NCBI GenBank assembly: GCA_030917925.1 | Contig: JAUPTV010000117.1 | Location: 1 to 46,978, forward strand | Length of the DNA stretch: 46,978 nucleotides | Direction of reading: 5' to 3' | Source of the DNA: Pseudomonadota bacterium | Lineage (GTDB): Bacteria > Pseudomonadota > Gammaproteobacteria > Competibacterales > Competibacteraceae | Made by a program: the position numbers and the translations under genes | Shown: positions 3,917 through 46,978 of the stretch, one piece after another | Position numbering within the stretch: the stretch's first letter is position 1 | How the letters are laid out: each line of letters begins with the position of its first letter | Notes under the pieces: generated by a model | Database searches by the model: none | Seen by the model: the letters and a program-made list of their open reading frames with translations, nothing else | Told to the model about the DNA's origin: nothing

Positions 3917-5017
3917 TTAAAGCCGCATGGGCATGATGACGTGCCGACCGCCGCTCCCTTCAGCTTCTTCGATCAAGCAACTGCTGGCGGAGTCGGAGAA
4001 GGACAGCTTCGCCAATTCACCGGTCAATGCACCCAGAGCATCCAGCATGTAGGTCACGTTGAACCCAATTTCCAGCGGACCGCCGCTGTAATTGATCTCG
4101 ACTTCTTCCTCGGCTTCTTCCTGATCAGGATTCCGCGCCTTTGCCCGCAGAATCCAGTCTTCGAGTTGCAGCGCAACGCCAGTGGTTTTGTCGTTGAGAA
4201 CGATACCGGCGCGGGCCAGAGCACTGCGCAGCACTTGTCGGTCAGCAATGACCACGCGATTGCCTTCACGCGGGATAACGCGCTGGTAGTCCGGGAATTT
4301 GCCGTCAATCAGCTTCGAGGTAAAGCGGATCTCGCCGAGGATCACGCGCAGATGGTTGGTGCCGATTTTCAGGATGACTTCGGCGTCGCTGTCGGCCAGT
4401 AGCCGCATCAGTTCCAGAATGCCTTTGCGCGGGACGATTACCTGACGCGCTTGTACGGTAGCGTCTTCGGTCTGCAATTCCTGAAACGCTAACCGATGAC
4501 CGTCAGTCGCGACTAATCGCAGAGCGTTGGGACCGACTTCCAGCAACAGGCCATTCAGGTAGTAGCGCACATCCTGCTGCGCCATGGCGAAGTGGCTGCG
4601 CTCGATCATGCCGCGCAACGCGCCCTGATGTACGCGGATGTCGCCATCGAAAGGTAAATCTTCCAGCGTCGGGAAATCACTGGCGGGCAGGGTGACCAGG
4701 GTGAACCGGCTACGTCCACAGCGCACGGTGGCCTTGTCGCCTTCCACGGTGATGGTCACTGTGCCGTCTTCCGGAAAGGCACGCAGGATGTCGTGCAACC
4801 GACGTGCGGGGAGCGTCGTTTCGCCTGGCGCTTCTGCGGGCAGATCCGCTCGCGCCGACAGTTCGACTTCCAGATCGGTCGCGGTCATTGTGAGATCCCG
4901 TTCCCGTGCGGCCAACAGGACGTTGGTCAGGATGGGTAACGTTTGCCGACGTTCAACAGCGCCGATGACCGATTGCAGCGGTTTGAGCAATTGCTCGCGC
5001 TTGGCTTCCAGCTTCAT
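3917..5017 (-). CDS. dnaN: DNA polymerase III beta sliding clamp
   Basis: Ring-shaped processivity clamp; the 366 residues match the E. coli clamp length and contain three repeated clamp domains. Recognisable family stretches are the N-terminal PILTNVLL, the middle DVRYYLNGLLLE followed by ATDGHRLA, and the C-terminal HVIMPMRL tail that forms part of the partner-binding groove. A GGAGAA ribosome-binding site sits about 5 nt before the ATG. The gene is separated from dnaA by the origin region, so it may have its own promoter there. Confidence 0.97.
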   Translation of the reverse strand: MKLEAKREQLLKPLQSVIGAVERRQTLPILTNVLLAARERDLTMTATDLEVELSARADLPAEAPGETTLPARRLHDILRAFPEDGTVTITVEGDKATVRCGRSRFTLVTLPASDFPTLEDLPFDGDIRVHQGALRGMIERSHFAMAQQDVRYYLNGLLLEVGPNALRLVATDGHRLAFQELQTEDATVQARQVIVPRKGILELMRLLADSDAEVILKIGTNHLRVILGEIRFTSKLIDGKFPDYQRVIPREGNRVVIADRQVLRSALARAGIVLNDKTTGVALQLEDWILRAKARNPDQEEAEEEVEINYSGGPLEIGFNVTYMLDALGALTGELAKLSFSDSASSCLIEEAEGSGGRHVIMPMRL

Positions 5018-5197
5018 TCAGTTCTCCAAAGTGTGTTCATGGACCTGTGGCGCAGCGCCAGAGGATGGTGAGGCTATTCCTGACTGAAGTCAGGGGTTTT
5101 AAAATTTTTCCTTTTCGGGGAGACCCGAAATTCTGGCTGGTCAATCATATCTTTTTTTTATATTTAAAAGACTGTTGTTGTTGGGTCGGGCATTTTC

Positions 5198-5384
5198 TGT
5201 GGATAACTTTTTTTTTTTGTTTATTTTCAATTAATTACAAGCGTTTTGCCTGTGGATAAGTCTGTGGATAAAATGTGGATAACTCGGTTTGCCTGTGGAT
5301 AACTTTTTTTGGTCGAAAAAGTTATCCACAGGGTAGGCCGAGTTATCCACAGAAATGGCAAAGTTATCCACAGACTTATCCACA
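5198..5384. repeat. Inverted-repeat DnaA-box cluster (left half of oriC)
   Basis: Five boxes read TGTGGATAA and then four read TTATCCACA, giving a large imperfect palindrome centred near 5312-5318. Boxes pair by symmetry (5251 with 5376, 5263 with 5364, 5274 with 5343, 5294 with 5322). The bases next to them also pair, for example CTCGG/CCGAG beside 5274 and 5343. Single strands of this region could fold into a long hairpin. Confidence 0.85.
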
Positions 5385-5607
5385 GGCTATTTTCCAATTT
5401 TTTACCAAGTTGCCTTTATTTTTTATTTAAGTCAGTAAATTTTTCATTATTTACAGTATATGTCAATGAAAATACTTAATTTTACACTATCAATTACACT
5501 ATTTTTTAAAAAATATTTCATGTTGCTGAATTTACATATTAAATTTATGATATTTATTGATTTTACGAAATAGATTACAGATAAAAAATCGCCTTGAAAA
5601 TAGCGAT
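5385..5607. other. AT-rich putative DNA unwinding element
   Basis: Roughly 220 bp composed mostly of A and T, with T-runs and A-runs and no credible gene, lying between the two DnaA-box clusters. Low duplex stability next to DnaA boxes is the usual property of an unwinding element. No 13-mer family was resolved by eye. Confidence 0.65.
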
Positions 5608-5704
5608 CAAAAAGTTATCCACTTATCCACAGAAGTTATCCACAGCTTTTTCCATATGAACTCACCAAAAAGTTATCCACTTATCCACAGAAGTTATCCA
5701 CAGC
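5608..5704. repeat. Direct repeat of DnaA-box triplets (right half of oriC)
   Basis: Two identical 39-bp copies, 5608-5646 and 5666-5704, with a period of 58 bp. Each holds one near-box overlapping a perfect box by one base and a second perfect box 13 bp further on. All boxes face the same way, unlike the left cluster. The last box ends 10 bp from the dnaA stop codon. Confidence 0.85.
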
Positions 5705-5712
5705 CCATTTTT

Positions 5713-7068
5713 CTAATTGGTGAGGGTAGTGAGCAAGTTGGTAAAATCATCGCGGATCTGGTGATCGTGGCGCTGGAGTTCGCGGATCTTCCGACAGGCA
5801 TGCAAGACCGTCGTATGATCGCGTCCGCCAAACGCTTCGCCAATATCAGGCAGGCTGAGTGGGGTCAGTTCTTTAGCCAGTGTCATCGCCATCTGTCGGG
5901 GGCGGGACAAGGTGCGCAGTCGGCTATTGGACAACAGGTCATCGACTGGAATCTTGTAGTAGTCAGCAACGGTCTTCTGGATATTTTCGATGGTGACCAG
6001 TTTCTCCTGCAGGCTCAGCAGATCGTACAGAACTTCCTTGACGTAGCTGATAGTGATCGCTTTGCCGGTGAATTGGGCGTTGGCATAGACCCGCCGCAGG
6101 GATCCTTCGAGTTCCCGGACATTGGAACGGATGCGCTGGGCAATGAAAAACGCCACTTCATCGGGCAGCACAATCTCGGCCTGTTCCGCTTTGCGCTTGA
6201 GAATCGCCACGCGGGTTTCCAGTTCCGGCGGCTCGACCGCGACCGTCAGGCCGGAGCCAAAGCGCGATTTCAGGCGGTCTTCCAACCCATCGACTTCCTT
6301 GGGATAACGGTCACAGGTCAGGATGACTTGTTGTCGGCTTTCCAGCAGGCTGTTGAACGTGTAGAAAAACTCTTCCTGGGACCGTTCCTTGCCCGCCAGA
6401 AATTGCACGTCGTCGATTAGCAACGCATCCAGCGAACGATAACGGCGTTTGAACTCACTCATGGCGTTATGCTGCAAGGAGCGAATCATGTCCGCTACGA
6501 AGTATTCGCAATTCTGATAAACCACTTGCGATTCGGGATTTTGTTCACGCAACATGTTGCCGACGGCGTGGATCAGGTGGGTCTTGCCCAGGCCGGTGCC
6601 GCCGTAGATAAACAGGGGATTATAGGCTTTGCCAGGGTTTTGCGTGACTTGCAGGCAGGCAGCGCGGGCGATCTGGTTGGAATTACCCTCGACGAAAGTT
6701 TCAAAGGTGAAGTCGGGATTCAGAATCCCACTTTTCAGCAGATCGGCAGGCGTGGGGACTGACACGACCGACTCGCGAACCGCTACTGCTTCAGAAAAAC
6801 TCTCGGCCAGGGGCGTTGGCAAGTCGCCACTGCCGATTTCCAGCAGCACTTCTGGCGGTTGTTCTGGTCTTAATTTATTGATTACATTTATAATTTGTTC
6901 AAGATGGTGTTTCCTGACCCAATCGAGTACGAAGCGATTTGGTGCCAGTAGGCGTAAAACGCCGACGTCTTCCTGCGCGTGTAGTGGACGAATCCAGGTG
7001 CTTAACTGTTTTTCGGATAATTCGTGTTCCAGGCAATCCTGGCAGGCTTTCCACAGGGTGTGATCCAC
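5713..7068 (-). CDS. dnaA: Chromosomal replication initiator protein DnaA
   Basis: AAA+ initiator that binds DnaA boxes and melts the origin. The 451 residues show an N-terminal DnaB/DiaA-interaction domain, a variable linker, the AAA+ core with Walker [11 protein letters not shown] and Walker [10 protein letters not shown], and the C-terminal helix-turn-helix with the signature [15 protein letters not shown]. The start is a GTG with AGGAG seven bases upstream. The gene reads toward oriC and dnaN and is divergent from rpmH. A near-consensus DnaA box (TTATCCACT, 7127-7135) lies about 60 bp upstream and could serve autoregulation. Confidence 0.98.
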
Positions 7069-7189
7069 CCGACTTCTCCTTACGGAACTTCAACGGAAAA
7101 ATTGAGTTTAATCACTGGTTGAACGGTTATCCACTACTCACTGAAGCCGGGCGAATTGTTCACTCAGTTCCAACCGGTTGCCATCAAGC

Positions 7190-22050: not shown

Positions 22051-22853
22051 GCCAGATCCCCACCCGGCATCAACCGCGCAAACGCTTCGGGCAACACTTT
22101 CTGCATGATCCCCAGGTCATTGCCCACATTATGGCCGCGATTCGCCCCAAATCCGGCGAACATCTAGTGGAAATTGGTCCGGGTTTAGGCGCATTGACCC
22201 GACCGCTGCTACAGGCGGTTGGGGAACTGGATGTCGTGGAACTGGACCGTGACCTGGTGGAGCCGTTGCACGCGCAGTGCGCTGGGCTGGGAACGTTGCG
22301 GATTCATCAGGCCGATGCGCTGAAATTTGATTTTGCGAAGCTGCGGGTTGAAGACGGCCCGCGCTTGCGGGTCGTTGGCAATCTGCCCTACAACATTTCT
22401 ACGCCTCTGCTATTTCACCTGTTGGCTCAGGCGGAACATCTCCACGATTTGCACTTCATGTTGCAACAGGAGGTAGTGGCGCGGATGGCGGCAGGTCCCG
22501 GCGAAGAGGCCTACGGGCGATTGTCCGTTATGCTGCAATATCGTTGTCAGGTTGAAGCGCTGTTTACCGTGGGGCCAGGTGCTTTTCAGCCGCCGCCTAA
22601 GGTTCGGTCGGCGGTCGTGCGCCTGGTTCCACGTGAAACATTGGCCGTAGCCGTGCGGGATGAACAGCAGTTTGCTGAAGTAGTGCGACGGGCTTTCGCG
22701 CAGCGCCGCAAGACCTTGCGCAACAGCCTGCGGGGGTTGCTGGAGTCTGCGCAAATTGAAAGCGCTGGCGTTAATCCGGTCGCCCGCCCGGAAACCCTGG
22801 ATTTGGCCGCGTTCGCCGCGTTGAGCAATGCTGTGATCACTGAACCTGCATAG
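22047..22853 (+). CDS. rsmA: 16S rRNA (A1518/A1519) dimethyltransferase RsmA (KsgA)
   Basis: 268 residues with the family N-terminus PRKRFGQHFLHD, SAM motif I VEIGPGLGALT, acidic motif VVELDRDL, and the catalytic NLPYNIS motif. It dimethylates two adjacent adenines near the 3' end of 16S rRNA during 30S assembly. The start is a GTG inside a GTGA overlap with the surA stop. A parS site lies inside the coding sequence at 22625-22640. Confidence 0.96.
   Translation: MSQIPTRHQPRKRFGQHFLHDPQVIAHIMAAIRPKSGEHLVEIGPGLGALTRPLLQAVGELDVVELDRDLVEPLHAQCAGLGTLRIHQADALKFDFAKLRVEDGPRLRVVGNLPYNISTPLLFHLLAQAEHLHDLHFMLQQEVVARMAAGPGEEAYGRLSVMLQYRCQVEALFTVGPGAFQPPPKVRSAVVRLVPRETLAVAVRDEQQFAEVVRRAFAQRRKTLRNSLRGLLESAQIESAGVNPVARPETLDLAAFAALSNAVITEPA
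22625..22640. promoter_or_regulatory. parS-like ParB binding site inside rsmA
   Basis: GGTTCCACGTGAAACA differs from the 16-bp parS consensus TGTTCCACGTGAAACA only in the first base. It sits within the rsmA coding sequence and is translated. Confidence 0.75.
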
Positions 22854-22863
22854 CGGGTTCGAT

Positions 22864-22879
22864 GGTTTCACGTGAAACA
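22864..22879. promoter_or_regulatory. parS-like ParB binding site downstream of rsmA
   Basis: GGTTTCACGTGAAACA, a 14-bp perfect palindrome with one outer mismatch to the parS consensus, 11 bp after the rsmA stop codon. Confidence 0.8.
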
Positions 22880-26170: not shown

Positions 26171-26206
26171 AAGGATCGGTCTTCATCACACATACAGGGA
26201 AAGGAA

Positions 26207-26321
26207 TGTTCCACGTGAAACCATCAAACCAGGAACTGATGTTTCACGTGAAACCATCAAACCAGGAACCGATGTTCCACGTGAAACCATCAAACCAGGA
26301 ACCAGTGTTTCACGTGAAACC
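26207..26321. repeat. Tandem array of four parS sites with 33-bp period
   Basis: Four 16-bp sites, TGTTYCACGTGAAACC, begin at 26207, 26240, 26273 and 26306, exactly 33 bp apart. The spacer is also conserved (ATCAAACCAGGAAC). Sites alternate TTCC and TTTC in the left arm. They match the ParB consensus except for the last base. The array lies between gmhB and glyS, 20.5 kb from oriC, and is the expected nucleation point for ParB in chromosome segregation. parA/parB are not in the window. Confidence 0.9.
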
Positions 26322-26334
26322 ATGAAACCAGCAG

Positions 26335-35185: not shown

Positions 35186-36721
35186 ATGAGCAAGGCTCTT
35201 CTCAAATCCACCGGCGTCGTCAGCGCAATGACGTCGCTCTCGCGGGTGACCGGTTTCATCCGCGACATGATTTATGCGCAGATGTTCGGAGCCGGGGCGG
35301 GTACCGACGCCTTCTTCGTGGCGTTCCGCATCCCGAACTTTTTACGCCGACTGTTTGCGGAAGGGGCGTTCTCACAGGCTTTTGTGCCGGTGTTCTCGGA
35401 ATATCAGACGCAGCATTCCCCTGAAGCGTTAAAGGAACTGGTGGATCAGGTGACCGGGACGCTGGGCCTGATCCTGTTTATTATCACGGCGATAGGCGTC
35501 CTGGCCGCGCCGCTGCTGATCTTCATTTTCGCCCCCGGTTTCACGGCCGATGCCGGCAAATATGCGCTGACGGTGGACATGCTGCGCATCACCTTTCCCT
35601 ATTTGCTGTTTATCTCGCTGACCGCCCTGGCTGGCGGGATCTTGAACAGTTGCGGCAAATTCGCCATTCCCGCTGTAACCCCGGTGCTGCTCAATCTGAC
35701 CATGATCGCCGCCGCGCTTTGGTTAGCCCCGCGCATGGACAAGCCGGTGATGGGGCTGGCTTGGGGGGTGTTCATCGCTGGAATCATCCAGTTAAGTTTC
35801 CAAATTCCCTTTCTGCGTCAAGTCAAATTACTGCCACGCCCGCGCTGGGGTTGGGCGGCGCAGGGGGTTCAGAAAGTGCTGAAATTGATGCTGCCTGCTG
35901 TATTCGGATCGTCGGTTGCGCAGGTCAACCTGCTGATCGATACGCTGGTCGCCTCGTTCCTGATTTCCGGCAGCGTCAGTTGGCTGTACTACTCCGACCG
36001 GTTGGTGGAATTTCCGCTGGGTATTTTCGGCGTAGCGCTCGGTACGGTGATTCTGCCCCGGCTCTCCCGCCAACACGCTAACGCCGCGACCGAGGATTTT
36101 TCCCGTACCCTGGACTGGGCGCTGCGCTGGGCCTTGTTGATTGGAGCGCCAGCGACGGTGGCGCTGATCCTGCTGGCTGGACCGCTGCTGGCCGCGTTGT
36201 TCCAATATGGCGAATTTGACGCCCGCGATGTCGAGATGTCCGCCCGCAGTCTGATGGCGTTCGCGCTCGGGTTGACCGCCTTTATGCTGATCAAGGTGCT
36301 GGCTCCAGGGTTCTACGCCCGGCAAGATACCCGCAGCCCGGTCAAATACGGCTTGATCGCCATGGGGGTGAATACGGCATTGGTGCTGATGCTGGTCTGG
36401 CCACTGGCTCATGCCGGGCTGGCGCTGGCGACTTCGCTGGCGGCGTTTCTCAATGCCGGACTGTTGTTGTTTAATCTGCGCCGGCGGGACATTTATCAAC
36501 CGCAACCGGGTTGGACGACGTTTCTCCTGCAACTGGCCGTGGCCAATCTGGTGATGGGCGGCGTGTTGTGGTTCGGCACGGGGAATCTCGAAAGCTGGAC
36601 GCAGGCGGCGGCTGGCGACCGGTTATGGCATCTTAGTGGATTGATTGCTGCGGGCGGAGGGAGTTATCTGCTGGCGGCGCTGGCGGTGGGGATTCGCCCC
36701 CGGCATCTGTTGCATGGTTGA
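35186..36721 (+). CDS. murJ: Lipid II flippase MurJ
   Basis: 511-residue polytopic membrane protein with about 14 hydrophobic segments. The N-terminus SLSRVTGFIRDMIYAQMFGAG and FRIPNFLRRLFAEGAFSQAFVPV (here broken for brevity) contain the charged residues typical of MurJ's central cavity. It translocates lipid II for peptidoglycan synthesis. Divergent from rpsT, the same neighbour pair as in many gammaproteobacteria. Confidence 0.95.
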   Translation: MSKALLKSTGVVSAMTSLSRVTGFIRDMIYAQMFGAGAGTDAFFVAFRIPNFLRRLFAEGAFSQAFVPVFSEYQTQHSPEALKELVDQVTGTLGLILFIITAIGVLAAPLLIFIFAPGFTADAGKYALTVDMLRITFPYLLFISLTALAGGILNSCGKFAIPAVTPVLLNLTMIAAALWLAPRMDKPVMGLAWGVFIAGIIQLSFQIPFLRQVKLLPRPRWGWAAQGVQKVLKLMLPAVFGSSVAQVNLLIDTLVASFLISGSVSWLYYSDRLVEFPLGIFGVALGTVILPRLSRQHANAATEDFSRTLDWALRWALLIGAPATVALILLAGPLLAALFQYGEFDARDVEMSARSLMAFALGLTAFMLIKVLAPGFYARQDTRSPVKYGLIAMGVNTALVLMLVWPLAHAGLALATSLAAFLNAGLLLFNLRRRDIYQPQPGWTTFLLQLAVANLVMGGVLWFGTGNLESWTQAAAGDRLWHLSGLIAAGGGSYLLAALAVGIRPRHLLHG

Positions 36722-36752
36722 AAAATAATGAATCGAGTTCGAGGAACCCTTT

Positions 36753-37472
36753 ATGCGCGCACACTATTTTCAACACGTTCCCTTTGAAGGCTTGGGCAGC
36801 ATCGAGCCTTGGCTGCAATCGGCGGGCTATGAAATCACCCAGACCCGCTACTTTGAATCTGTGGCGCAGCCGGACCCTGAAGCGATTGACCTGCTGGTGG
36901 TGATGGGCGGGCCGATGAGCATCAATGATGAAGCGGAGTTTCCCTGGTTAGTTGCCGAGAAGCAGTTTATTCGGGCCGCTATTCAGTTAGGAAAGCCGAT
37001 TCTGGGGATTTGTCTGGGCGCACAACTGATTGCCAGCGCTATGGGCGCTCGGGTTTACGGTAATCCGGTGAAGGAAATCGGCTGGTTGCCAATCCATGGG
37101 AGGCCAGTGGATGACGATGCAATATTCAATTTCCCGCCTTTGCTGGACGCTTTTCACTGGCACGGCGAGACATTCGACCTGCCCGCTGGAGCGATTCACC
37201 TGGCAAGCAGCGCCGGCTGTGTGAATCAGGCGTTTCAACTCGGCGCGTCGGTCATCGGGTTGCAGTTTCACCTGGAAACGACTCCGCAGTTGGCGCAAAA
37301 CCTGGTCGCTCACTGCCGCCACGAACTGGTTCCCGCGCCCTATATCCAAACGGAAGCACAAATTTTGTCGCCAACGCCGGAACGCTATGCCGCGATGAAC
37401 CGGGTCATGGGCGATATCCTCGCCTTCTTGGCGCGGAAGCCGCAGGTTTATGCGAACCCACGCAGAACCTAG
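36753..37472 (+). CDS. Class I glutamine amidotransferase domain protein
   Basis: 239 residues with the triad of class I GATases: nucleophile in GICLGAQLIASAMGA near residue 85, and the His and Glu in GLQFHLETT near residue 175. MGGPMS and FHWHGETFDLP are typical of stand-alone GMP synthase-like amidotransferases. Some relatives hydrolyse gamma-glutamyl compounds such as gamma-glutamylputrescine; the substrate here is unknown. It begins 31 bp after murJ. Confidence 0.82.
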   Translation: MRAHYFQHVPFEGLGSIEPWLQSAGYEITQTRYFESVAQPDPEAIDLLVVMGGPMSINDEAEFPWLVAEKQFIRAAIQLGKPILGICLGAQLIASAMGARVYGNPVKEIGWLPIHGRPVDDDAIFNFPPLLDAFHWHGETFDLPAGAIHLASSAGCVNQAFQLGASVIGLQFHLETTPQLAQNLVAHCRHELVPAPYIQTEAQILSPTPERYAAMNRVMGDILAFLARKPQVYANPRRT

Positions 37473-37499
37473 CCCGCCGGCATCGCTGGCGACTGATCT

Positions 37500-37560
37500 T
37501 TAGAAGCTATCCAGGAACTCCTCTCCCAGGGGGAGATGGGAGTTTTTAGACAGCTTCTTA
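37500..37560. repeat. Imperfect inverted repeat after the amidotransferase gene
   Basis: TTAGAAGCTATCCAGGAACTCC at the left pairs with GGAGTTTTTAGACAGCTTCTTA at the right, around a CTCTCCC/GGGAGA core. The inner stem is followed by TTTTT, so on the plus strand it could also act as a terminator. The long symmetric outer arms look more like a small dispersed repeat. Confidence 0.6.
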
Positions 37561-37588
37561 GCCTTTAGCCTTCATGAGGGATGGATCA

Positions 37589-38491
37589 ATGACCACTATG
37601 ACTACGATAAGCATTATCCTGCCCGCCCGTAATGAGGCGGTGAATCTGCCGCCATTGCTGAAGAAGCTGACCGGGCAATGTCCGGGCGCAGAGATTATTG
37701 TGGTCGATGATGGGTCGACGGATGAAACGGCAGCGGTGTGCCGATCCTTTGGGGTGCGGGTAATTTCACATCCTTATAGTCTGGGCAATGGGGCGGCGAT
37801 CAAGACTGGGGCGCGGGCGGCGTCGGGGGAGACACTGGTGTGTATGGATGCGGATGGTCAACATGATCCGGCGGATATTCCCCGGTTGCTGGCGAAGTTG
37901 GATGAGGGGTATGCCATGGCGGTCGGGGCGCGGCGGGATCATTCGCAGGCGTCGTGGGGGCGTGGTATCGCGAATCGGGTCTATAATCGGTTGGCGAGTT
38001 GGATGGCGAATTGTCAGGTGCTGGATTTGACGTCGGGATTTCGGGCAGTGCGAGCGCGGCAGTTTCGAGAGTTTTTGTATCTGTTGCCGAACGGGTTTTC
38101 TTATCCAACGACGATTACCATGGCGTTTTTCCGCAGCGGTTATCCGGTTGCTTATGTCCCGATTGTGGCCGGGCGACGGGAAGGGAAGAGTCATATTCAG
38201 CCGTTGCAGGATGGAGTGCGATTTCTGTTGATTATTTTTAAAATCGGGACGCTGTATTCGCCATTGAAGCTATTTTTTCCGATCAGTCTGAGTTTTTTTC
38301 TGATGGGTATTTTTTACTATGCTTATACCTACGTTATGCAGGGCCGCTTTACCAATATGGGCACCTTGTTATTCAGCGTGTCGGTGGTGATTTTTATGAT
38401 GGGTCTAGTATCGGAGCAGATTACCGGTCTGTTTTATCAGAAATCGGATGGCGGTGCCGGGAAGGAAAGGATGGCTTCGAATGAAGACTGA
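37589..38491 (+). CDS. Family 2 glycosyltransferase (polyprenyl-phosphate type)
   Basis: 300 residues from the ATG at 37589, which has GAGGGA about 8 nt upstream; an ATG 15 bp earlier is in frame. The GT-A fold shows ISIILPARNEAVNLP, DDGSTDET and the metal-binding MDADGQHDP. Two C-terminal membrane helices (about residues 225-255 and 258-285) resemble DPM1-like or GtrB-like enzymes that charge a polyprenyl phosphate. It is the first gene of a tight glycosyltransferase cluster and overlaps the next gene by 11 bp. Confidence 0.85.
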   Translation: MTTMTTISIILPARNEAVNLPPLLKKLTGQCPGAEIIVVDDGSTDETAAVCRSFGVRVISHPYSLGNGAAIKTGARAASGETLVCMDADGQHDPADIPRLLAKLDEGYAMAVGARRDHSQASWGRGIANRVYNRLASWMANCQVLDLTSGFRAVRARQFREFLYLLPNGFSYPTTITMAFFRSGYPVAYVPIVAGRREGKSHIQPLQDGVRFLLIIFKIGTLYSPLKLFFPISLSFFLMGIFYYAYTYVMQGRFTNMGTLLFSVSVVIFMMGLVSEQITGLFYQKSDGGAGKERMASNED

Positions 38492-39332
38492 TGCGTTGTT
38501 TTACCGGTTGTTTCAGGCTTTACCGGGTTTGGTGTTTGAGTTGGCCGGGATTACGGGATTGAATGGACGGGATTATCGATTCCGCTCTGAAGAGGTCAAG
38601 CAGACAGCATTTCGGTTGGATGGCGTGTTGACGCCGCCAGCGGCGAAGTCGGAGTGGCCAGTGGTGTTTGTCGAAACGCAAATGCAGGCCGACGATGCGT
38701 TTTATGGGCGATGGTTCGCGGAGATATTCCTGTATCTGTACCGCATGGAGCCGGTGCGGTCATGGCGAGCGGTGGTGATCTATCCCAGTCGGCAGGTGGA
38801 GCGTCTGGATGAGCGGCGGTATGGTTCGGCGGTGGAGCTTCCAGAAGTGTATCGTGTGTATTTGGAAGATTGGGTGGATGTGCCAGCGGCGACGGTGGGA
38901 TTGCGGCTTGTGCAGCTCATGGTGGGAAAGGCGGCGGATGCGCCGGTCAAGGCCCGGCAGTTGGTGCAGGATTCATCAGCAAGCACCGAACTGCCGCAAC
39001 CGGTGTTACTGGATTTGGTTGAAACGATTGTGGTCTATAAGTTGCCAGGTATGAGTCGAGAGGAGGTGCGGCGTATGTTGGAATTACACGATATTGATTT
39101 GCGACAGACCCGGTTTTATCAGGAGGTGTTCGCAGAGGGTGAGGCGCGGGGTGAGGCACGGGGTGAGGCACGGGGTGAAACCAGGCTGTTGCAGAAGTTG
39201 TTGGCCCGTCGCTTTGGAGCCTTGCCGGAGTGGGTGGGGGCAAAATTGGCGGCGGCGGAACCCGCGCAATTGGAGACATGGGGAGAGCGGGTGTTGGAGG
39301 CGCGGTCGCTGGAAGCGGTTTTTATGGCATGA
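38481..39332 (+). CDS. DUF2887 / Rpn-family PD-(D/E)XK nuclease-like protein
   Basis: 283 residues starting MKTDALFYRLFQALPGLVFELAG, the typical opening of DUF2887 proteins, which belong with Rpn/YhgA recombination-promoting nucleases. The likely catalytic residues are in FRLDGVL near residue 52 and VVFVETQMQ near residue 70 (D...ExQ). A helical C-terminus carries three EARG tandem repeats near residue 220. Its start lies inside the end of the preceding glycosyltransferase gene, which is odd for a nuclease-like gene in a polysaccharide operon. Activity is not proven. Confidence 0.75.
   Translation: MKTDALFYRLFQALPGLVFELAGITGLNGRDYRFRSEEVKQTAFRLDGVLTPPAAKSEWPVVFVETQMQADDAFYGRWFAEIFLYLYRMEPVRSWRAVVIYPSRQVERLDERRYGSAVELPEVYRVYLEDWVDVPAATVGLRLVQLMVGKAADAPVKARQLVQDSSASTELPQPVLLDLVETIVVYKLPGMSREEVRRMLELHDIDLRQTRFYQEVFAEGEARGEARGEARGETRLLQKLLARRFGALPEWVGAKLAAAEPAQLETWGERVLEARSLEAVFMA
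39141..39176 (+). repeat. 12-bp tandem repeat within the DUF2887 gene
   Basis: Three copies of GAGGC(G/A)CGGGGT encode EARG three times. The unit is a multiple of three, so copy change alters length without breaking the frame. Confidence 0.85.
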
Positions 39333-39395
39333 AGGTTGTTGTGGTTGGCCCGCCCTGTTGTTTTGATCACAGGAAAGCTTATATGAGGACACAAC

Positions 39396-40529
39396 TTGAA
39401 CGAGTTAAACCGCTCTCGCGTTTTAATGGTGAGCACGTCGTTTCCGGAAACGCGCCAGGATTGGCCAGGGCGTTTTATTGCGAATATGGCGGAGGCTCTG
39501 GCTCGTCGTGAGGATGTGCATCTGGCGTTATGGGCACCGCCCGGTGAGCATTCCGCAATGATTCAGCAAGCGACTTTGCCTGAAGAGGCTCTGTGGTTAC
39601 GCCAGTTACTTCAGTCGGGAGGAATCGCGCATTTATTACGCGCCAAACCCTGGCAGGGAGGGTTGGCGGCCGCCGGTTTGTTGCGTCGGTTGCGTCGAGT
39701 TTATCGACGCTATCAGGATGATGTAGATGTCGTTCACGTCAACTGGTTGCAGAATGCCCTGCCGTTGTGGGGGATGGATCGGCCAGCCGTGATCACGGTG
39801 TTAGGCAATGATTTTGGCTTGCTGCGCTTGCCCGGTATGGTGACGGCGTTGCGAGCAGTGTTGCGGGGACGGCGTGCGATTTTAGCGCCGAATGCGGACT
39901 GGATGAGCGATGAATTGATGCGGCGATTTGGCGATTTGGCGGAGGTTCGCCCGATTCCTTTCGGGGTAGATGATCCCTGGTTTGCCATGGAGCGGTGCGT
40001 CGCCTGGGAGGGGCCACAGCAGTGGTTGGCGGTGACGCGGTTGACCCAACGCAAGATTGGTGATTTGTTTGCGTGGGGTGAGGGGTTGTTTGATGAACAG
40101 CGGCAGTTGCATTTGTTTGGACCGATGCAGGAGGCGCTGACGATTCCAGGCTGGGTGCATTATCACGGCGCGACGCATCCCAAGGCGCTGCTTGAGGAGT
40201 GGTTTCCCAAAGCGGCGGGGTTGGTGACGTTGAGCCAGCATGATGAGGGGCGGCCGCAGGTGTTGCTGGAAGCAATGGCGGCGCGGTTGCCGGTGATTGC
40301 CTCGGCGTTGCCCGCGCATCGGGATTTAATTCGGTCAGGGGAAACGGGAATGTTGGTGAATTCACGTTCGTTGTTTGCCTCGGCCTTGCAGAAATTGGAA
40401 TCACCGGCTGATAACCAGCGGATTGGGGAAGCTGCTCAAGCGTGGATCAAAACCATGGTGGGGACTTGGGATGATTGCGCCAGTCGTTATCATGCTGCTT
40501 ATCAAACCGTTCTGGGAGCCAGTGCGTGA
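39396..40529 (+). CDS. Family 4-like glycosyltransferase
   Basis: 377 residues of GT-B fold. N-terminal acceptor domain: VLMVSTSFPETRQDWPGRF; C-terminal donor domain: WLAVTRLTQRKIGDLF, then LSQHDEGRPQVLLEAMAARLPVIAS with the E-x7-E type motif that binds the nucleotide sugar. The start is taken as TTG at 39396 because GAGGA lies 6 nt before it; an ATG at 39426 is the alternative. Overlaps the epimerase gene by 4 bp (GTGA). Probably builds a surface polysaccharide; the sugar is unknown. Confidence 0.85.
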   Translation: MNELNRSRVLMVSTSFPETRQDWPGRFIANMAEALARREDVHLALWAPPGEHSAMIQQATLPEEALWLRQLLQSGGIAHLLRAKPWQGGLAAAGLLRRLRRVYRRYQDDVDVVHVNWLQNALPLWGMDRPAVITVLGNDFGLLRLPGMVTALRAVLRGRRAILAPNADWMSDELMRRFGDLAEVRPIPFGVDDPWFAMERCVAWEGPQQWLAVTRLTQRKIGDLFAWGEGLFDEQRQLHLFGPMQEALTIPGWVHYHGATHPKALLEEWFPKAAGLVTLSQHDEGRPQVLLEAMAARLPVIASALPAHRDLIRSGETGMLVNSRSLFASALQKLESPADNQRIGEAAQAWIKTMVGTWDDCASRYHAAYQTVLGASA

Positions 40530-41455
40530 GTCAGCAAAGTGTGTTGTTGCTGGGGGGGAATGGATTTCTTGGAACCGCGCTAGCACGGCGTTTGGTCAAG
40601 GAAGGTTGTGAGGTGTGTGTGGTAGGGCGACGAACCGTCAATTCGGCTATAGAGGGTGTGGTGACCCGTCAGGCCCATTTGGATAACGTAGCGATGTTGC
40701 GTGAGTTGTTGCCTGCCTATCGAACGGTAGTGCATTTGGCGTCTACGACAACACCGGGGAGTTCGGCGCACTCGCCAGTCCGTGAGACTGAGGAAAATGT
40801 GTTGCCAGCGCTGCGTTTGCTGGAGGTTTTGGCGGAGTTTGAGCCGGTGCGGCTGATCTACGCGTCTTCCGGGGGGACTTTGTACGGTAATCCAGCAGTG
40901 TTGCCGGTGACTGAGGATCAGCCGTTGTGGCCGTTGTCGAATCATGGCGTGGGTAAGGTGGCTGTTGAGGGATTTTTACGGGTTTATGGGCGGCAGCATG
41001 GCGACCGGGTGACGATTTTACGTCCGTCGAATGTGTATGGCCCGGCGCAACCGTTGCGTGAGGGGTTTGGGGCGATTCGCACGATGCTGGAATATGTGCG
41101 GCGGGGGGAGGCTATGGAGTTTTGGGGGGATGGGGAGGCGGTGCGTGATTTTTTGTTTATTGAGGATTGGGTGGAGGCGTGTTGGCAGTTGTTGGCACCG
41201 GAAGCGCCAGTGGGGGTGTATAACATTGGGGTAGGCGTGGGTTGTTCATTGAATAGTTTGCGAGCAGTGGTGGAGCGGGTCACGGGGCGGGAGTTGCGGG
41301 TGAATTGGCGGCCAGCGCGGTCAGTCGATGTGCGTGGGGTGGTATTGGATTCAACCCGGTTGCAGGCCGCGACAGGATGGGTGCCGCAGGTGACGCTGGA
41401 GGAGGGAATTTGGCAAATGTGGGAATGGTTGCAAGAGAGCGCACAAGGTGACTGA
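40526..41455 (+). CDS. NAD-dependent sugar epimerase/dehydratase
   Basis: 309 residues, extended short-chain dehydrogenase. The NAD-binding motif is GGNGFLGTALARRLV near the start. The catalytic Ser region is YASSGGTLYG; the usual YxxxK appears as HGVGKVAVE, so the Tyr is replaced by His (NHGVGK). RPSNVYGPAQ and DGEAVRDFLFIEDW are typical of UDP-glucose 4-epimerase relatives. The GTG at 40526 overlaps the previous stop. The missing catalytic Tyr, if real, would weaken activity. Neighbouring glycosyltransferases suggest nucleotide-sugar supply. Confidence 0.82.
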   Translation: MSQQSVLLLGGNGFLGTALARRLVKEGCEVCVVGRRTVNSAIEGVVTRQAHLDNVAMLRELLPAYRTVVHLASTTTPGSSAHSPVRETEENVLPALRLLEVLAEFEPVRLIYASSGGTLYGNPAVLPVTEDQPLWPLSNHGVGKVAVEGFLRVYGRQHGDRVTILRPSNVYGPAQPLREGFGAIRTMLEYVRRGEAMEFWGDGEAVRDFLFIEDWVEACWQLLAPEAPVGVYNIGVGVGCSLNSLRAVVERVTGRELRVNWRPARSVDVRGVVLDSTRLQAATGWVPQVTLEEGIWQMWEWLQESAQGD

Positions 41456-42461
41456 GCCGGTTTGTTCGATTTGCATCGCCAATTATAACGGCATGGCGAC
41501 CCTGGCGGCGTGTCTGGATTCGGTGTTGGCGCAGGAGTGTGGTTTTGCTGTTGAGATCATTGTGCATGATGATGCATCGAGTGATGGATCAGTGGCGTTG
41601 ATTCGTCAGTATTATCCGCAGGTGGTGTTGATTGAGAGTACGGAGAATGCGGGTTTTTGCGTGGCGAATAACCGGATGGCGGCGTTGGCCCGAGGCGATT
41701 ATCTGTTGTTATTAAATAATGATGCAGCGCTGTGGCCGGATGCGCTGACAACACTGTTAGCGGCGGCGCAGGTATTAGGTGAACCGGCGATTTTGAGTTT
41801 GCCGCAATATGAGTGGGAGACCGGGAAGTTGTTGGACAGAGGGAGTCGTTTGGATCCGTTCCTGAATCCGGTGGCTAATCAGGATCCGCAGTGTGAGGAT
41901 GTGGGTTTGGTGATGGGGGCGTGTCTGTGGATTCCACGGGTATTGTGGTTGGAGATCGGTGGTTTTCCCGAGTGGTTTGGAAGTATTGGTGAGGATTTGT
42001 ATTTGTGTTGCCGGGTGCGGTTGATGGGTTATGCAGTGCGGGCGCTGAACCGGTCCGGTTATCGGCATCAGGTCGGGCAGAGTTTTGGCGGGGGTAAGGT
42101 GGAGGTGGGGCGGTTGGTGACGACATTTCGGCGGCGGTCATTGTCGGAACGGAATAAGACGTTGGTGATGGCGTTGACGTTTCCGGCACCACTCTTTCAG
42201 ATTATGTTTCCGCTGCATTTGCTGTGGTTGTTATTGGAAGGGGTTTTGCTGTCGCTGGTGAAGTGGGATCGGCGTTTTCTCAGCCGGATTTATTGGCCGG
42301 TGTTTGGATCGCTAGGCCGGGAATGGCGACGGTTATGGCGGTTACGAAGGGAAATTCAGCAGGGGCGGTGTTTGAGTGTGTGGCGCTTTTTTTCAGTGTT
42401 TCAATGGATGCCGCACAAGCTGATTGCGCTGGTGAAGTATGGTTTACCAGAAGTGCGTTAA
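41448..42461 (+). CDS. Family 2 glycosyltransferase (rhamnosyltransferase-like)
   Basis: 337 residues: GT-A core with CSICIANYNGMATLAAC, HDDASSDGS, NAGFCVANN and LLNNDAALWPDA, then a GGFPEWFGSIGEDLYLCCR acceptor region and a hydrophobic stretch near residue 250. It starts with GTG overlapping the epimerase stop by 8 bp. The last 69 bp or so of coding sequence (from 42371) recur almost exactly 855 bp downstream, beyond the MNT-HEPN pair. Confidence 0.85.
   Translation: MTEPVCSICIANYNGMATLAACLDSVLAQECGFAVEIIVHDDASSDGSVALIRQYYPQVVLIESTENAGFCVANNRMAALARGDYLLLLNNDAALWPDALTTLLAAAQVLGEPAILSLPQYEWETGKLLDRGSRLDPFLNPVANQDPQCEDVGLVMGACLWIPRVLWLEIGGFPEWFGSIGEDLYLCCRVRLMGYAVRALNRSGYRHQVGQSFGGGKVEVGRLVTTFRRRSLSERNKTLVMALTFPAPLFQIMFPLHLLWLLLEGVLLSLVKWDRRFLSRIYWPVFGSLGREWRRLWRLRREIQQGRCLSVWRFFSVFQWMPHKLIALVKYGLPEVR
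42371..42439 (+). repeat. 69-bp direct repeat, copy A (inside glycosyltransferase end)
   Basis: Matches 43226-43294 at 67 of 69 positions (two C/T differences). It is part of the coding sequence for the glycosyltransferase C-terminus. Confidence 0.95.
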
Positions 42462-42499
42462 TCAGAAGAAGATATTAAGTTGTAAGATCGAGGCTGACA

Positions 42500-42787
42500 A
42501 TGCGTTTAACAGAACAGCAAAGAAATGTTATTCGCGAGGCAGGGATACGCTATTTTGGCGTGGTGCCGAGTTTGTTTGGATCGCGGCTAAACGATACCGG
42601 GCGTGGTGGTGATATTGATCTTTTTATTCCGGGAGACTGGTCTCCGGAAGAGGCCGTTCCTCGACGGTTACGTTTCTGCGCGGAATTACGTCGTCGCTTG
42701 GGTGACCAAAAAATCGATGTAGTGGTGGAAAATAAAACACCTTCTTCAATTCAGAACCAAGCTAAACTGTATGGAGAACCGGTATGA
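42500..42787 (+). CDS. MNT-type minimal nucleotidyltransferase (antitoxin of HEPN toxin)
   Basis: 95 residues with the nucleotidyltransferase motif GSRLNDTGRGGDIDLF (GS-x9-D-x-D) near residue 27 and a third acidic strand KIDVVV near 73. This is the MntA class. In studied pairs MntA transfers AMP to a Tyr of its HEPN partner and silences it. It overlaps the next gene by 4 bp (ATGA), the standard arrangement of the MNT-HEPN module. Confidence 0.85.
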   Translation: MRLTEQQRNVIREAGIRYFGVVPSLFGSRLNDTGRGGDIDLFIPGDWSPEEAVPRRLRFCAELRRRLGDQKIDVVVENKTPSSIQNQAKLYGEPV

Positions 42788-43218
42788 GAACTTTGGATGA
42801 TCTGCTAAACGAATGTGATCTTCATCTTTTAGCGCTTCAAGAAGCAATGGCCCGTTGTCCCCCAACCTTGACCGTCGATGACTTTGCTACAAGAAATCCA
42901 GATTTGGTTGCAGCTTTGGATCAATTTGCCTATCGCTTCACGAAGCTGCAAGACGTTATGAGTGTCCAGTTGTTCCGGCGGTTTGCGCTGGATGTGTTGC
43001 ATGAACCTGTCGAATCAATGCCGGTGATTGATATTCTGAATTTGTTGGAAAGATACCGATATTTGCCATCGGCTTTGCGTTGGCAAGAAATCAGGGAAAT
43101 TCGCAATCAAATTACTCATGAATATCGTCTCGATCCAAACGAGTTGATTGTGACGCTTAAAATCGCTTTTAGTATGGTTGGAGAAATGTCAGGAGTTATT
43201 GCTGCACTAAAAAAATAG
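42784..43218 (+). CDS. HEPN-domain toxin (HepT-like RNase)
   Basis: 144-residue helical protein ending with the HEPN active motif RNQITHEY, which fits R-x4-H-x-Y: the Arg and His are the RNase residues and the Tyr is the residue AMPylated by MntA in characterised systems. Overlaps the nucleotidyltransferase by 4 bp. Codon use is more AT-rich than the genes to the left. Confidence 0.82.
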   Translation: MRTLDDLLNECDLHLLALQEAMARCPPTLTVDDFATRNPDLVAALDQFAYRFTKLQDVMSVQLFRRFALDVLHEPVESMPVIDILNLLERYRYLPSALRWQEIREIRNQITHEYRLDPNELIVTLKIAFSMVGEMSGVIAALKK

Positions 43219-43225
43219 CACTAAT

Positions 43226-43294
43226 TTTGAGTGTGTGGCGCTTTTTTTCAGTGTTTCAATGGATGCCGCACAAGTTGATTGTGCTGGTGAAGTA
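43226..43294 (+). repeat. 69-bp direct repeat, copy B (orphan glycosyltransferase tail)
   Basis: Second copy of 42371-42439, 8 bp after the HEPN stop. It carries the end of the glycosyltransferase without the rest of the gene and two C-to-T changes. It does not appear to be translated. Confidence 0.95.
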
Positions 43295-43332
43295 ATTTCA
43301 ATGCCGTGTGTGTTGATTGTGCGAGGTGAGCG

Positions 43333-43584
43333 ATGATCCAGACCTATATTAATGCGGCGATGCGACAGGCCCGTTATGAGTTGATTCAAGATGATGAACC
43401 CTACTATGGCGAAATACTGGAATTGCCCGGGGTTTGGGCTACGGGCCGGACTCTGGAGGAATGTCGACAAAATTTATTAGAAGTTGTAGATGGCTGGTTG
43501 TTGTTCCGAATCGTCCGGGGAATGCCGATTCCGCCACTCGGTGATATCCGGATTATGCTGCCACGGGAGATGACCCTTGCCTAG
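43333..43584 (+). CDS. HicB-like antitoxin
   Basis: 83 residues with the HicB partial RNase H fold: ARYELIQDDEPYYGEILELPGVWATGRTLEEC pattern (shown split by DEPYYG and PGVWA), followed by ENLLEVV-like helix (QNLLEVVDGWLL). It lacks a separate C-terminal DNA-binding domain, as do the short HicB forms. It precedes its toxin, the reverse of classic hicAB, and overlaps it by 8 bp. Confidence 0.82.
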   Translation: MIQTYINAAMRQARYELIQDDEPYYGEILELPGVWATGRTLEECRQNLLEVVDGWLLFRIVRGMPIPPLGDIRIMLPREMTLA

Positions 43585-43804
43585 ATTAATCCCAGTGTCT
43601 TGGCTGGAGCTGATTCGGCGCTTGCGGATATTGGGGTTCTCTGGTCCATTTGAAGGGAGCAAGCATCCTTATATGATGCGCGGCGATCATGTATTGACGA
43701 TACCTAACCCGCATCGAAGCGATATTGGCGTTGATCTTCTCAAACGTATTCTGGATCGTGCGGGTGTAAGTCGCGATATGTGGCTGACGACTGAGGAGAA
43801 TTAG
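43577..43804 (+). CDS. HicA-like mRNA interferase toxin
   Basis: 75 residues of the dsRBD-like HicA fold. SWLELIRRLRILGF is followed by GPFEGSKHPYMMRGD with the catalytic-type His, then the LTIPNPHRSDIGVDLLKRIL helix region. The start is TTG at 43577 (MPRLIPVSW), inside the end of the antitoxin gene, which gives the family N-terminus. HicA cleaves mRNA in a translation-related manner in known systems. Confidence 0.85.
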   Translation: MPRLIPVSWLELIRRLRILGFSGPFEGSKHPYMMRGDHVLTIPNPHRSDIGVDLLKRILDRAGVSRDMWLTTEEN

Positions 43805-43849
43805 TTAGAAATACTATCAGGCGGTTAAAAATGGGAGAATTTTACAACG

Positions 43850-44071
43850 ATGCTACATCGTCATTTAAATCATGAACAATGGACCTTGGCGGCTATTGAT
43901 AATTGCATTGCTCGCGGTCAACGGTTGGACTGGGTGGATCTGCGGCGTGCGGCATTGGCGGATCGGGCAATATTGGAGAAGGTGATGCGTATTTGTCAGG
44001 CTCATATCGTGGATTGTTATGCGCAGCGTTATGATTTCTGGAAGCATTATGCCGAAAGACACTTGGCCTGA
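43850..44071 (+). CDS. Small conserved-looking hypothetical protein
   Basis: 73 residues (LNHEQWTLAAIDNCIARG, LRRAALADRAILEKV, YAQRYDFWKHYAE). It looks helical, has balanced codon use and follows the HicA gene by 45 bp, so it is likely real. I do not recognise a named family. A short frame starting ATG at 44049 overlaps its end and runs 24 codons to a stop (MPKDTWPEWERAILIFENIV), which may be the truncated start of a second gene. Position in a toxin-antitoxin island suggests one half of a damaged pair; this is inference. Confidence 0.5.
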   Translation: MLHRHLNHEQWTLAAIDNCIARGQRLDWVDLRRAALADRAILEKVMRICQAHIVDCYAQRYDFWKHYAERHLA

Positions 44072-44363
44072 ATGGGAACGTGCAATATTGATTTTTGAAA
44101 ATATCGTTGGATTAGAAGATTGAGATCAGGTAGAGCTTTTGCAGGGAGTGAATGCGGTGGTTGTTTATAGTTTAAAAAATTCCTTAATTGTTGTTTGCAG
44201 GACGTTCGAACAGGAAAAAGGGTTCTGCCGCGTTAACTCCGTAATATTCAGCGTCGATTTCTGGCAATAGGTTTTTATGTTGGCCTATGTGTGGAATAAA
44301 GAAGCTACCTTTATTGGTATTAGTGAATGTGGTTTTTGGATATTTGAGTAATTACAATTTAGT
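44072..44363. other. Gap between the TA island and the minus-strand polysaccharide genes
   Basis: 292 bp, no firm gene. On the minus strand, 44184-44350, a 55-codon frame with no good start reads in part FFIPHIGQHKNLLPEIDAEYYG, NAAEPFFLFERP and then stops. It looks protein-like and may be the end of a lost gene. The function is not recognised. Confidence 0.35.
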
Positions 44364-45293
44364 TTATTTTTTATACTGTCCCATTCTTCTCTGCAACCCA
44401 TGCCATATTCCCTTAGTTGCCATTTTTAATGTTTCTGCTCGATGATCTCCAAAAAAGATGTGAGCATAGATGACTTTTGTCCAGTACCAACTACTACGAA
44501 GTTTCCAGCGCCAGCTAATATATTCCAAGCGACATAGCGCCACAAAATTTCTTAAGCGGTAGTAGATGCGTAATGGGCTATAGGCGCTCTCATTACGCCA
44601 ACCTAAATACCATACTCTTAGATATGAATCGCCCATCCGTTGATAAAGCGTAGCGTATCCTGTTCCAAATAGATAGTAGCCTTTTGACCGTGCGCGATGA
44701 CACCACTCGATATCTACATGGTCAATAAAAAGATCTTCACGCATCAGTCCGACATCCTTAAACACTTCAACAGGAACCAGTGTTCCCGAGGTAATAAGAG
44801 TTAGTGCTTCTATATGAGGATTATCAGGCGTTGGAGTTTTGTGACCATAGAAAAAATGCCTTGGTAACTGTACCTGAAAAGGATAAGTTATTTTTGTATA
44901 CACGTCAGTATAAGTTGGTCCCACTGCACCGATCTTGAAACCGATACGAGAAATGTCCTGATAAGCTCGCACTAGGTTAGCTACCATATTGAACGATGGC
45001 TGACTATCTTGATCACTGAGGAGAACGTGGGTAAATCCCTCATTTTTGGCCACATCAATACCAATGTTAATTGCTGTTGCAATCCCAAAATTTTTGCCAA
45101 GACGCACAATCCTCAAAGGATAAAAATCTGGTTGATCTTTAAGAGTTTCCCAAACAATATCATTCTCTGCGGGAGTATTATCTATAACTATGATCTCTGT
45201 TGTTTGATTGTGCAGTTCATCAACCAATAGCAAAAGCGTTTCGGAATCTGGATAGTAAGCCACAATAATCGAGAGTATTTTATAATCATCCAA
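44364..45293 (-). CDS. Family 2 glycosyltransferase (rhamnosyltransferase type)
   Basis: 309 residues of the RfbF-type rhamnosyltransferase family: SIIVAYYPDSETL, VIDNTPAEND, GIATAINIGIDVA, LLSDQDSQPS with the DxD-like motif, and a later LFIDHVDIEWCHRARSKGY (contains the acceptor-site D-x-E-W). Likely adds a sugar to O-antigen or another surface polysaccharide. AT-rich compared with the genes before 42 kb. Convergent with the TA island. Confidence 0.85.
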   Translation of the reverse strand: MDDYKILSIIVAYYPDSETLLLLVDELHNQTTEIIVIDNTPAENDIVWETLKDQPDFYPLRIVRLGKNFGIATAINIGIDVAKNEGFTHVLLSDQDSQPSFNMVANLVRAYQDISRIGFKIGAVGPTYTDVYTKITYPFQVQLPRHFFYGHKTPTPDNPHIEALTLITSGTLVPVEVFKDVGLMREDLFIDHVDIEWCHRARSKGYYLFGTGYATLYQRMGDSYLRVWYLGWRNESAYSPLRIYYRLRNFVALCRLEYISWRWKLRSSWYWTKVIYAHIFFGDHRAETLKMATKGIWHGLQRRMGQYKK

Positions 45294-45729
45294 AATATCG
45301 CCTCCTATCTCGAAAATATACTTTTAATGACTTTCTAAGAAGATTCTGGTTCTTCGAGGGTTCTTGTGGAAATCAGGGCTTTATGTAACATAAAAATTTC
45401 ATTTCAACAAATAGCTCATCAATAAATAACTGATTTGTAATGATAATAATTTCACTATGCGCCAACTTGGCGGGCCAAAACCCATTTTTAGAATCGGCTC
45501 CACAAGAAACCTCGAAGAACCAAGATTCTTAGCCAAAAAATTTGCGACTTTAAATATTAACTGCTTCAGAAAAAATAGATCTTCGAGTCTTCTTATGAAA
45601 CCTGGGGAGTTTACGGAACCTATCAACTTTGTCATGATACAAACCATTGTATTTAACAATTTTATATCAATTATTATTACCTCTAATGCGAGCTAACCAC
45701 TATTTCCATAGAACACCACCTGAATAAAC
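45294..45729. other. Non-coding region containing the miniature element
   Basis: About 436 bp between two minus-strand genes. Apart from the 174-bp element no gene, terminator or promoter is supported; the only long frame here (minus strand, 45399-45659) runs through the element's repeat and has no family features. Confidence 0.5.
45348..45521. mobile_element. 174-bp ISL3-like miniature inverted-repeat element
   Basis: 22-bp terminal inverted repeats, GGTTCTTCGAGG(G/T)TTCTTGTGG, match at 21 of 22 positions. They are flanked by an 8-bp direct repeat AAGATTCT (45340-45347 and 45522-45529). GG-TTCTT-like ends and 8-bp target duplications are features of the ISL3 family. No transposase is present, so it is a non-autonomous element. 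Confidence 0.85.
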
Positions 45730-46647: not shown

Positions 46648-46650
46648 TTT

Positions 46651-46978
46651 TTAGCCCTTACGAATGATTTTCAAGAAAGACTTTAACAATTGAGGATAGG
46701 TAGCACTGCCTAAAAAAGCCCATACAAACAAGTGGATTAATATCCACACTAATAAACAAAAGTAACAGTTTTTTATTTGATCGATTTGATAATAAAAAGA
46801 GAAAAAATAACCCAATAGCCAGAAACATCCCAATATCAGAATGGCGCCGACTAAACAATCCTTAAACCTACATTGATCCCAGACTCCACCGATGATCCGA
46901 TTCATAGAAAAAGGCACACATAGTTCAGCATATATAATACCTACTAAAAATATCACTTTACCTACTCCCACACCTCCA
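46651..46978 (-). CDS. Membrane protein, C-terminal part (cut by window end)
   Basis: The frame is open to the right edge of the window, so this is the end of a longer gene or begins just inside it (a GTG at 46971 is possible). About 106 residues with at least three hydrophobic segments (for example AILILGCFWLLGYFF and CYFCLLVWILIHLF), as in polysaccharide polymerase, flippase or acyltransferase tails. Family not recognised. The next gene starts 3 bp after its stop, so they share an operon. Confidence 0.55.
   Translation of the reverse strand, partial: GGVGVGKVIFLVGIIYAELCVPFSMNRIIGGVWDQCRFKDCLVGAILILGCFWLLGYFFSFYYQIDQIKNCYFCLLVWILIHLFVWAFLGSATYPQLLKSFLKIIRKG

Follow-up and report, generated by a model that had tools for sequence, protein, structure and literature searches.

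The window analysed here, that is, the whole stretch of 46,978 nucleotides, comes from the draft genome (4.2 Mb, 299 contigs) of an uncultured Competibacteraceae bacterium. Apart from an unclassified proteobacterial MAG (RA.bin98), its closest named relatives are Ca. Competibacteraceae MAGs. Two genes border the region of interest.

3917-5017, minus strand: dnaN (profile TIGR00663, 334.7 bits)
5713-7068, minus strand: dnaA (profile TIGR00362, 559.8 bits; residue check)

In the DnaA protein encoded here, the Walker A, arginine finger, box VII, sensor 2 and DNA-binding residues are the same as those of E. coli DnaA. Between the two genes, positions 5198-5702 contain 13 exact copies of the DnaA box TTATCCACA, which start at 5198, 5251, 5263, 5274 and 5294 on the minus strand and at 5322, 5343, 5364, 5376, 5623, 5636, 5681 and 5694 on the plus strand. 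This box map confirmed the sequence-only reading in its claim that two differently built clusters share the dnaA-dnaN gap. The nine boxes of the dnaN-side cluster are as follows.

5198-5206, minus strand: DnaA box equivalent to R1, facing the unwinding element
5251-5259, minus strand: DnaA box equivalent to R5M, 53 bp from the R1-like box
5263-5271, minus strand: DnaA box of the left array
5274-5282, minus strand: DnaA box of the left array
5294-5302, minus strand: DnaA box at the inner end of the left array (fifth of five)
5322-5330, plus strand: DnaA box at the inner end of the right array
5343-5351, plus strand: DnaA box of the right array
5364-5372, plus strand: DnaA box of the right array equivalent to C1, 3 bp from the next box (PMC6727663)
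5376-5384, plus strand: DnaA box equivalent to R4, 178 bp from the R1-like box

The large palindrome that had been described for these nine boxes was found as a broken one, with perfect pairs of 24-nt arms (5248-5271 and 5364-5387) and of 17-nt arms (5292-5308 and 5316-5332).

The whole 4.2-Mb draft has 44 perfect DnaA boxes, 13 of which sit at 5198-5702, and the next largest cluster has 3. In the window, the pattern TTWTNCACA was matched 14 times against 2.5 expected, and 0 shuffles reached 14. A search with a 14-bp core pattern gave six parS sites in the draft, all of them 17-21 kb from the box cluster (22.6-26.3 kb of the window); the strict parS pattern with the terminal bases gave zero matches.

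22626-22639 and 22865-22878, plus strand: two parS-like sites (pattern search)
26206-26331, plus strand: four parS-like sites in a 33-bp tandem repeat (pattern search)

The 33-bp repeat lies upstream of a predicted HAD-type phosphatase gene, and no parAB pair adjoining the parS-like sites was noticed in the ORF list of the window. The cumulative GC skew of the window has its minimum at 4162. On the longest relative contig that was checked (399 kb), the GC skew is weak, with a minimum about 14 kb from oriC, and cannot locate the origin better than about 15 kb; its third-position skew (-0.012 on the left, +0.034 on the right) has the right sign and a small size.

It has to be considered whether the boxes serve transcription of dnaA and dnaN while the true origin lies elsewhere, in the rpmH-dnaA gap or, as in E. 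coli, near mnmG. Box clusters can indeed regulate genes, and upstream of dnaA a box is found in several relatives, at a place where the window has a near-box.

7127-7135, plus strand: near-box TTATCCACT, upstream of dnaA (a perfect box there in several relatives)

The 800 bp upstream of dnaA in the window, however, contain no consensus DnaA box, no other cluster of the draft exceeds 3 boxes, and the parS sites and the local skew minimum indicate the dnaA-dnaN gap. We regard this explanation as highly improbable; the box or near-box upstream of dnaA probably serves dnaA autoregulation and is not an origin. Since the draft-wide box count, the nearby parS sites, the local skew minimum and the box-free 800 bp upstream of dnaA agree, it is nearly certain that 5198-5702 is the chromosomal oriC of this Ca. 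Competibacteraceae bacterium, as had been proposed from the sequence alone. Like other DnaA-dependent origins, it has a box cluster that is not due to chance and is unique in the draft, and it adjoins dnaA and dnaN together with AT-rich DNA.

The main cluster was compared among 22 relatives whose dnaA-dnaN gap is intact, most of them represented by metagenome-derived drafts. Its spacings are nearly fixed across about 20 species. Most relatives have five boxes directed toward dnaN and five toward dnaA; the window has five and four, one central box having been lost. All nine main-array sites of the window are perfect boxes, so that the low-affinity ATP-DnaA sites expected between strong boxes are missing, and inspection by eye of the 12-bp gaps of the main array revealed no box-like 9-mer. 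In the dnaA-dnaN gap of one relative (L011, genome G017), several boxes of both oriC arms read TTATCCACC instead of TTATCCACA, possibly reflecting a shift of DnaA specificity in that lineage.

A candidate IHF site lies in the 44-bp gap between the R1-like and R5M-like boxes.

5225-5237, minus strand: IHF-like site TAATTAATTGAAA, 1 mismatch, 31 bp behind the R1-like box

Of the 22 species, 18 have an IHF-like site with at most one mismatch here, where 2.9 would be expected, and its offset is almost always identical. These sites are consensus matches only, to a consensus that is loose in AT-rich DNA, and it is on the fixed offsets that the argument rests. Both ihfA and ihfB scored above the cut-off in the profile search.

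The E. coli oriC has a 46-bp gap between R1 and R5M, opposed arrays and a 3-bp R4-C1 spacing (PMC8488378, PMC6727663). The locus shares with it the order R1-IHF-R5M, the R1-R5M distance (53 bp here, 55 in E. coli), the span from R1 to R4 (178 bp and 180) with two opposed arrays, the orientation and very nearly the location of the IHF site, the 3-bp R4-C1 spacing, and an R1 box followed by 14 nt and trios, which read TAATAAGAG in E. coli. It had been stated that the locus does not have the E. coli arrangement; this holds for the gene neighbourhood, between dnaA and dnaN, but not for the internal layout, which is E. coli-like both in R1, IHF and R5M and in the spans. There are further differences. 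Every site is consensus here, whereas only 3 of 11 are in E. coli, the other eight being weak and mostly ATP-DnaA specific. The dnaA-side module is extra, and the dense GATC sites of E. coli are absent, with 1 GATC in 5100-5712 (613 bp).

The sequence between the R1-like box and dnaN has the features of an unwinding site.

5184-5197, minus strand: 14-nt spacer GAAAATGCCCGACC between the R1-like box and the trios (also 14 nt in E. coli)
5172-5183, minus strand: DnaA-trios CAA-CAA-CAA-CAG (TAATAATAATAAT in most relatives)
5147-5171, minus strand: AT-rich DNA beyond the trios (TCTTTTAAATATAAAAAAAAGATAT on the trio strand), with a family-conserved TCTTT-AT-rich motif by the trios

Read on the TTATCCACA strand of the outermost dnaN-side box, the relatives have the box, 14 nt and then TAATAATAATAATC, and the window has CAACAACAACAGTC; its trios are CAA, not TAA. 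Box, 14 nt and trios occur on the dnaN side in nearly all of the 22 species. All 20 module-bearing species have at least four NAN trios in a row there, the background probability being 0.135 per place. The arrangement agrees with the box-spacer-trio unit (BUS) as defined in PMC8287927 and PMC6669920, that is, a DnaA box, a short spacer and at least three NAN trios on the TTATCCACA strand. The most likely place of duplex opening is the dnaN side, not the AT-rich middle of the gap, and within the unwinding element 5147-5171 would probably open first.

The sequence-only reading had taken the AT-rich stretch between the clusters as the core of the origin. On this view, the two clusters would open it from both sides. 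AT-rich DNA is indeed present there, over 230 bp and not about 220 bp. DnaA boxes flank it on both sides, and it is the least stable duplex of the region (1.10 kcal/mol per bp, against 1.25 beside the trios). The trios, however, are conserved on the dnaN side: the mean longest run is 4.1 trios there, 1.35 on the side facing the spacer and 2.2 in the background, and among the 20 module-bearing species no conserved trios were found beside the spacer-facing boxes or the dnaA-side boxes. The latter, moreover, point away from the spacer. The spacer itself is not conserved in sequence, its length is either 155-157 bp or about 240-274 bp, and it is missing, together with the dnaA-side module, in one relative (L025). 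Other gammaproteobacteria have dnaN-side trios without such a spacer. Opening in the AT-rich middle is thus a poor prospect in our judgement. A contribution of the spacer to the opening that most likely occurs at the dnaN-side trios, or even a first opening within the spacer, is possible, because these 230 bp are the least stable stretch.

The spacer and the dnaA-side boxes have the following features.

5385-5614, no strand: AT-rich spacer, 230 bp, without conserved trios
5540-5552, minus strand: IHF-like site TATCATAAATTTA, 1 mismatch, 71 bp from the dnaA-side box
5608-5646, plus strand: 39-bp unit, copy 1 (near-box 5615-5623; boxes 5623-5631 and 5636-5644)
5666-5704, plus strand: 39-bp unit, copy 2 (near-box 5673-5681; boxes 5681-5689 and 5694-5702)

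The two units are 100% identical, and the description of them as a perfect 39-bp direct repeat with two perfect boxes and one near-box per copy was borne out. One base is indeed common to the near-box TTATCCACT (5615-5623 and 5673-5681) and the box that follows it, but the suggestion that this overlap allows tight packing of DnaA found no support in the comparison. The overlap results from a 1-bp deletion confined to the genus of the window (L001-L004), and other relatives have TTATTCAAC or TTATTCCAC at this position. Since the base was lost in this genus only, the overlap is a recent detail without conserved function. The core clade has a single two-box module abutting the dnaA stop, which is doubled only in the species of the window and in L002. 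Judged from these sequence comparisons, the dnaA-side boxes are an accessory module, the duplication and near-box overlap of which are recent and genus-specific.

The module boxes are oriented as those of the right array, facing away from the spacer. The IHF-like site of the spacer is at a fixed distance in 17 of 20 species (0.44 in shuffles; maximum 3, n=500), at a distance of 69-74 bp to the module, of 84-88 bp to the main array, or both; these positions were chosen after inspection of the data. An IHF-bent loop may bring the module to the right array.

Module and spacer might instead be mainly a regulator outside the initiation complex, a datA-like site for hydrolysis or titration joined to oriC. 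E. coli datA requires same-direction boxes and one IHF site (PMC5742627). Here too the boxes that flank the IHF site of the spacer are co-directional, and the relative orientation of the IHF site is as in datA; the distance from box 2 to box 3 of datA is 162 bp, and the corresponding distance is 166 bp in the short-spacer species. The orientation and the total length agree in this way, but the IHF-to-box distances do not (about 83/83 here, 65/97 in datA), and spacer and module, whose activity is a prediction, are part of oriC. The module is found only in relatives without Hda. The loss of Hda and the gain of the module, however, fall on a single branch of the DnaA tree and count as one co-occurrence, not as independent support. 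A better datA-like locus, moreover, exists elsewhere in the same genomes. We consider a mainly regulatory module possible but doubtful, and prefer an accessory module of the origin.

Hda (TIGR03420) is absent from 21 family genomes that are at least 90% complete, and is present in the four family members without the module (G008, G011, G012 and G018). Two relatives do not fit a simple rule: L025 (85% complete) has neither Hda nor the module, and in L022, from a 1.2-Mb genome, the module was not seen before the contig end. The genome of the window gave zero matches for SeqA, and the profile of the helicase loader DciA (PF05258) likewise gave zero matches. Our literature search found nothing on a Competibacter oriC or on gammaproteobacteria without Hda.

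The second conserved locus with DnaA boxes and an IHF site lies downstream of acyP in 15 Competibacteraceae loci of the core clade.

G000:C11:26410-26640 (L131:4411-4641; also L139-L152), on another contig of the draft: acyP-downstream locus

Its elements are a box at -187, an IHF site at -98, two boxes at 0 and +12 and, in most of the loci, a reversed box at +26. The IHF site is at -98 in 12 of the 15 loci, against 0.06 expected, and the first-box signature was absent from the Hda-bearing members tested. In E. coli datA, the IHF site is located at -97 and box 3 is followed by a reversed box (PMC5742627, PMC4585315), and the acyP locus matches it more closely than spacer and module do. These facts suggest that a DNA-based control of DnaA may have taken the place of Hda in the core clade. 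In its full form, the proposal would be that Hda was lost and SeqA is absent, and that the Hda shut-off was replaced by nucleotide-blind consensus sites in oriC, the IHF-looped module and the acyP datA-like locus, which would jointly hydrolyse or titrate ATP-DnaA. This full form is speculative, and we think it rather unlikely to be correct in all its parts.

From the observed sequences, spacings, conservation, IHF genes, parS sites and absence of Hda and SeqA, we infer binding, bending, opening and a role of the module as follows. DnaA would occupy all consensus boxes. The 44-bp gap that separates the R1-like box (5198) from the R5M-like box (5251) would be bent by IHF, and DnaA of the left array and the R1-like box could thereby be handed onto the trios at 5172-5183. 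The duplex would open at the trios and then into the adjoining AT-rich DNA on the dnaN side. As in E. coli, a second DnaA sub-complex would form on the opposed right array (5322-5384). IHF bound in the spacer may fold the accessory boxes of the 39-bp units back onto the right array, and these units may feed or titrate DnaA, or promote ATP hydrolysis like datA. We consider the scheme as a whole, an E. coli-like oriC that opens at dnaN-side trios and has an accessory module, to be quite probable.

Box-spacer-trio origins (PMC6669920, PMC8287927) likewise lie in the dnaA-dnaN gap and have a box, a short spacer and trios. The present origin differs from them in its long IHF-bent array with an opposed second array, in its CAA trios, and in a second cluster that lies in the same gap and not upstream of dnaA. 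Other gammaproteobacterial dnaA-dnaN origins (for example L036, L065 and L072) share an R1-like box with IHF 31-32 bp behind it, a 14-nt spacer and TAGTAA-type trios, but their gaps are mostly 180-250 bp long, with 0-3 perfect boxes, and lack the AT-rich spacer, the 10-box array and the dnaA-side module. Bipartite origins, as in B. subtilis and H. pylori, have clusters on both sides of dnaA, whereas both clusters here are in the dnaA-dnaN gap. The oriC of Thermus thermophilus is likewise short and has 13 boxes that are consensus or near-consensus (PMC4451416); the comparison covered the boxes, and no relationship is claimed.

This family combines the internal geometry of E. coli oriC with the ancestral dnaA-dnaN place and clear DnaA-trios. 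The E. coli oriC is thought to be derived from an ancestral dnaA-linked origin. Because of this combination, the present origin looks like an intermediate between B. subtilis-type unwinding and E. coli oriC. With neither low-affinity ATP-DnaA sites in the origin nor Hda in the genomes that carry it, it is moreover a natural counterpart of the engineered oriC-allADP. The purpose of the weak ATP-DnaA sites thereby becomes testable by comparison.

Among the other multi-box loci of the draft, only the one on C11 is conserved. The loci on C166 and C240 are iteron plasmid-like origins: they (L133:2416-2640 and L134:2457-2834) have iterons GTGTGTGAAACCACGTATGA and AAATGTCCCCGTCTATGGGATG and DnaA boxes beside Rep-like genes. 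The locus on C234 was set aside as a phage-like gene region. At the far end of the window, 36000-46978 carries a glycosyltransferase/epimerase cluster with a strong G skew of 0.28-0.36 at 38-43 kb and a low GC content of 0.38 at 44-46 kb, and looks like an acquired surface-polysaccharide island. A gene at 38448-39332 encodes an Rpn-family nuclease/putative transposase (TIGR01784, barely above the cut-off), within which an in-frame 12-bp repeat (39137-39178) encodes GEAR units.
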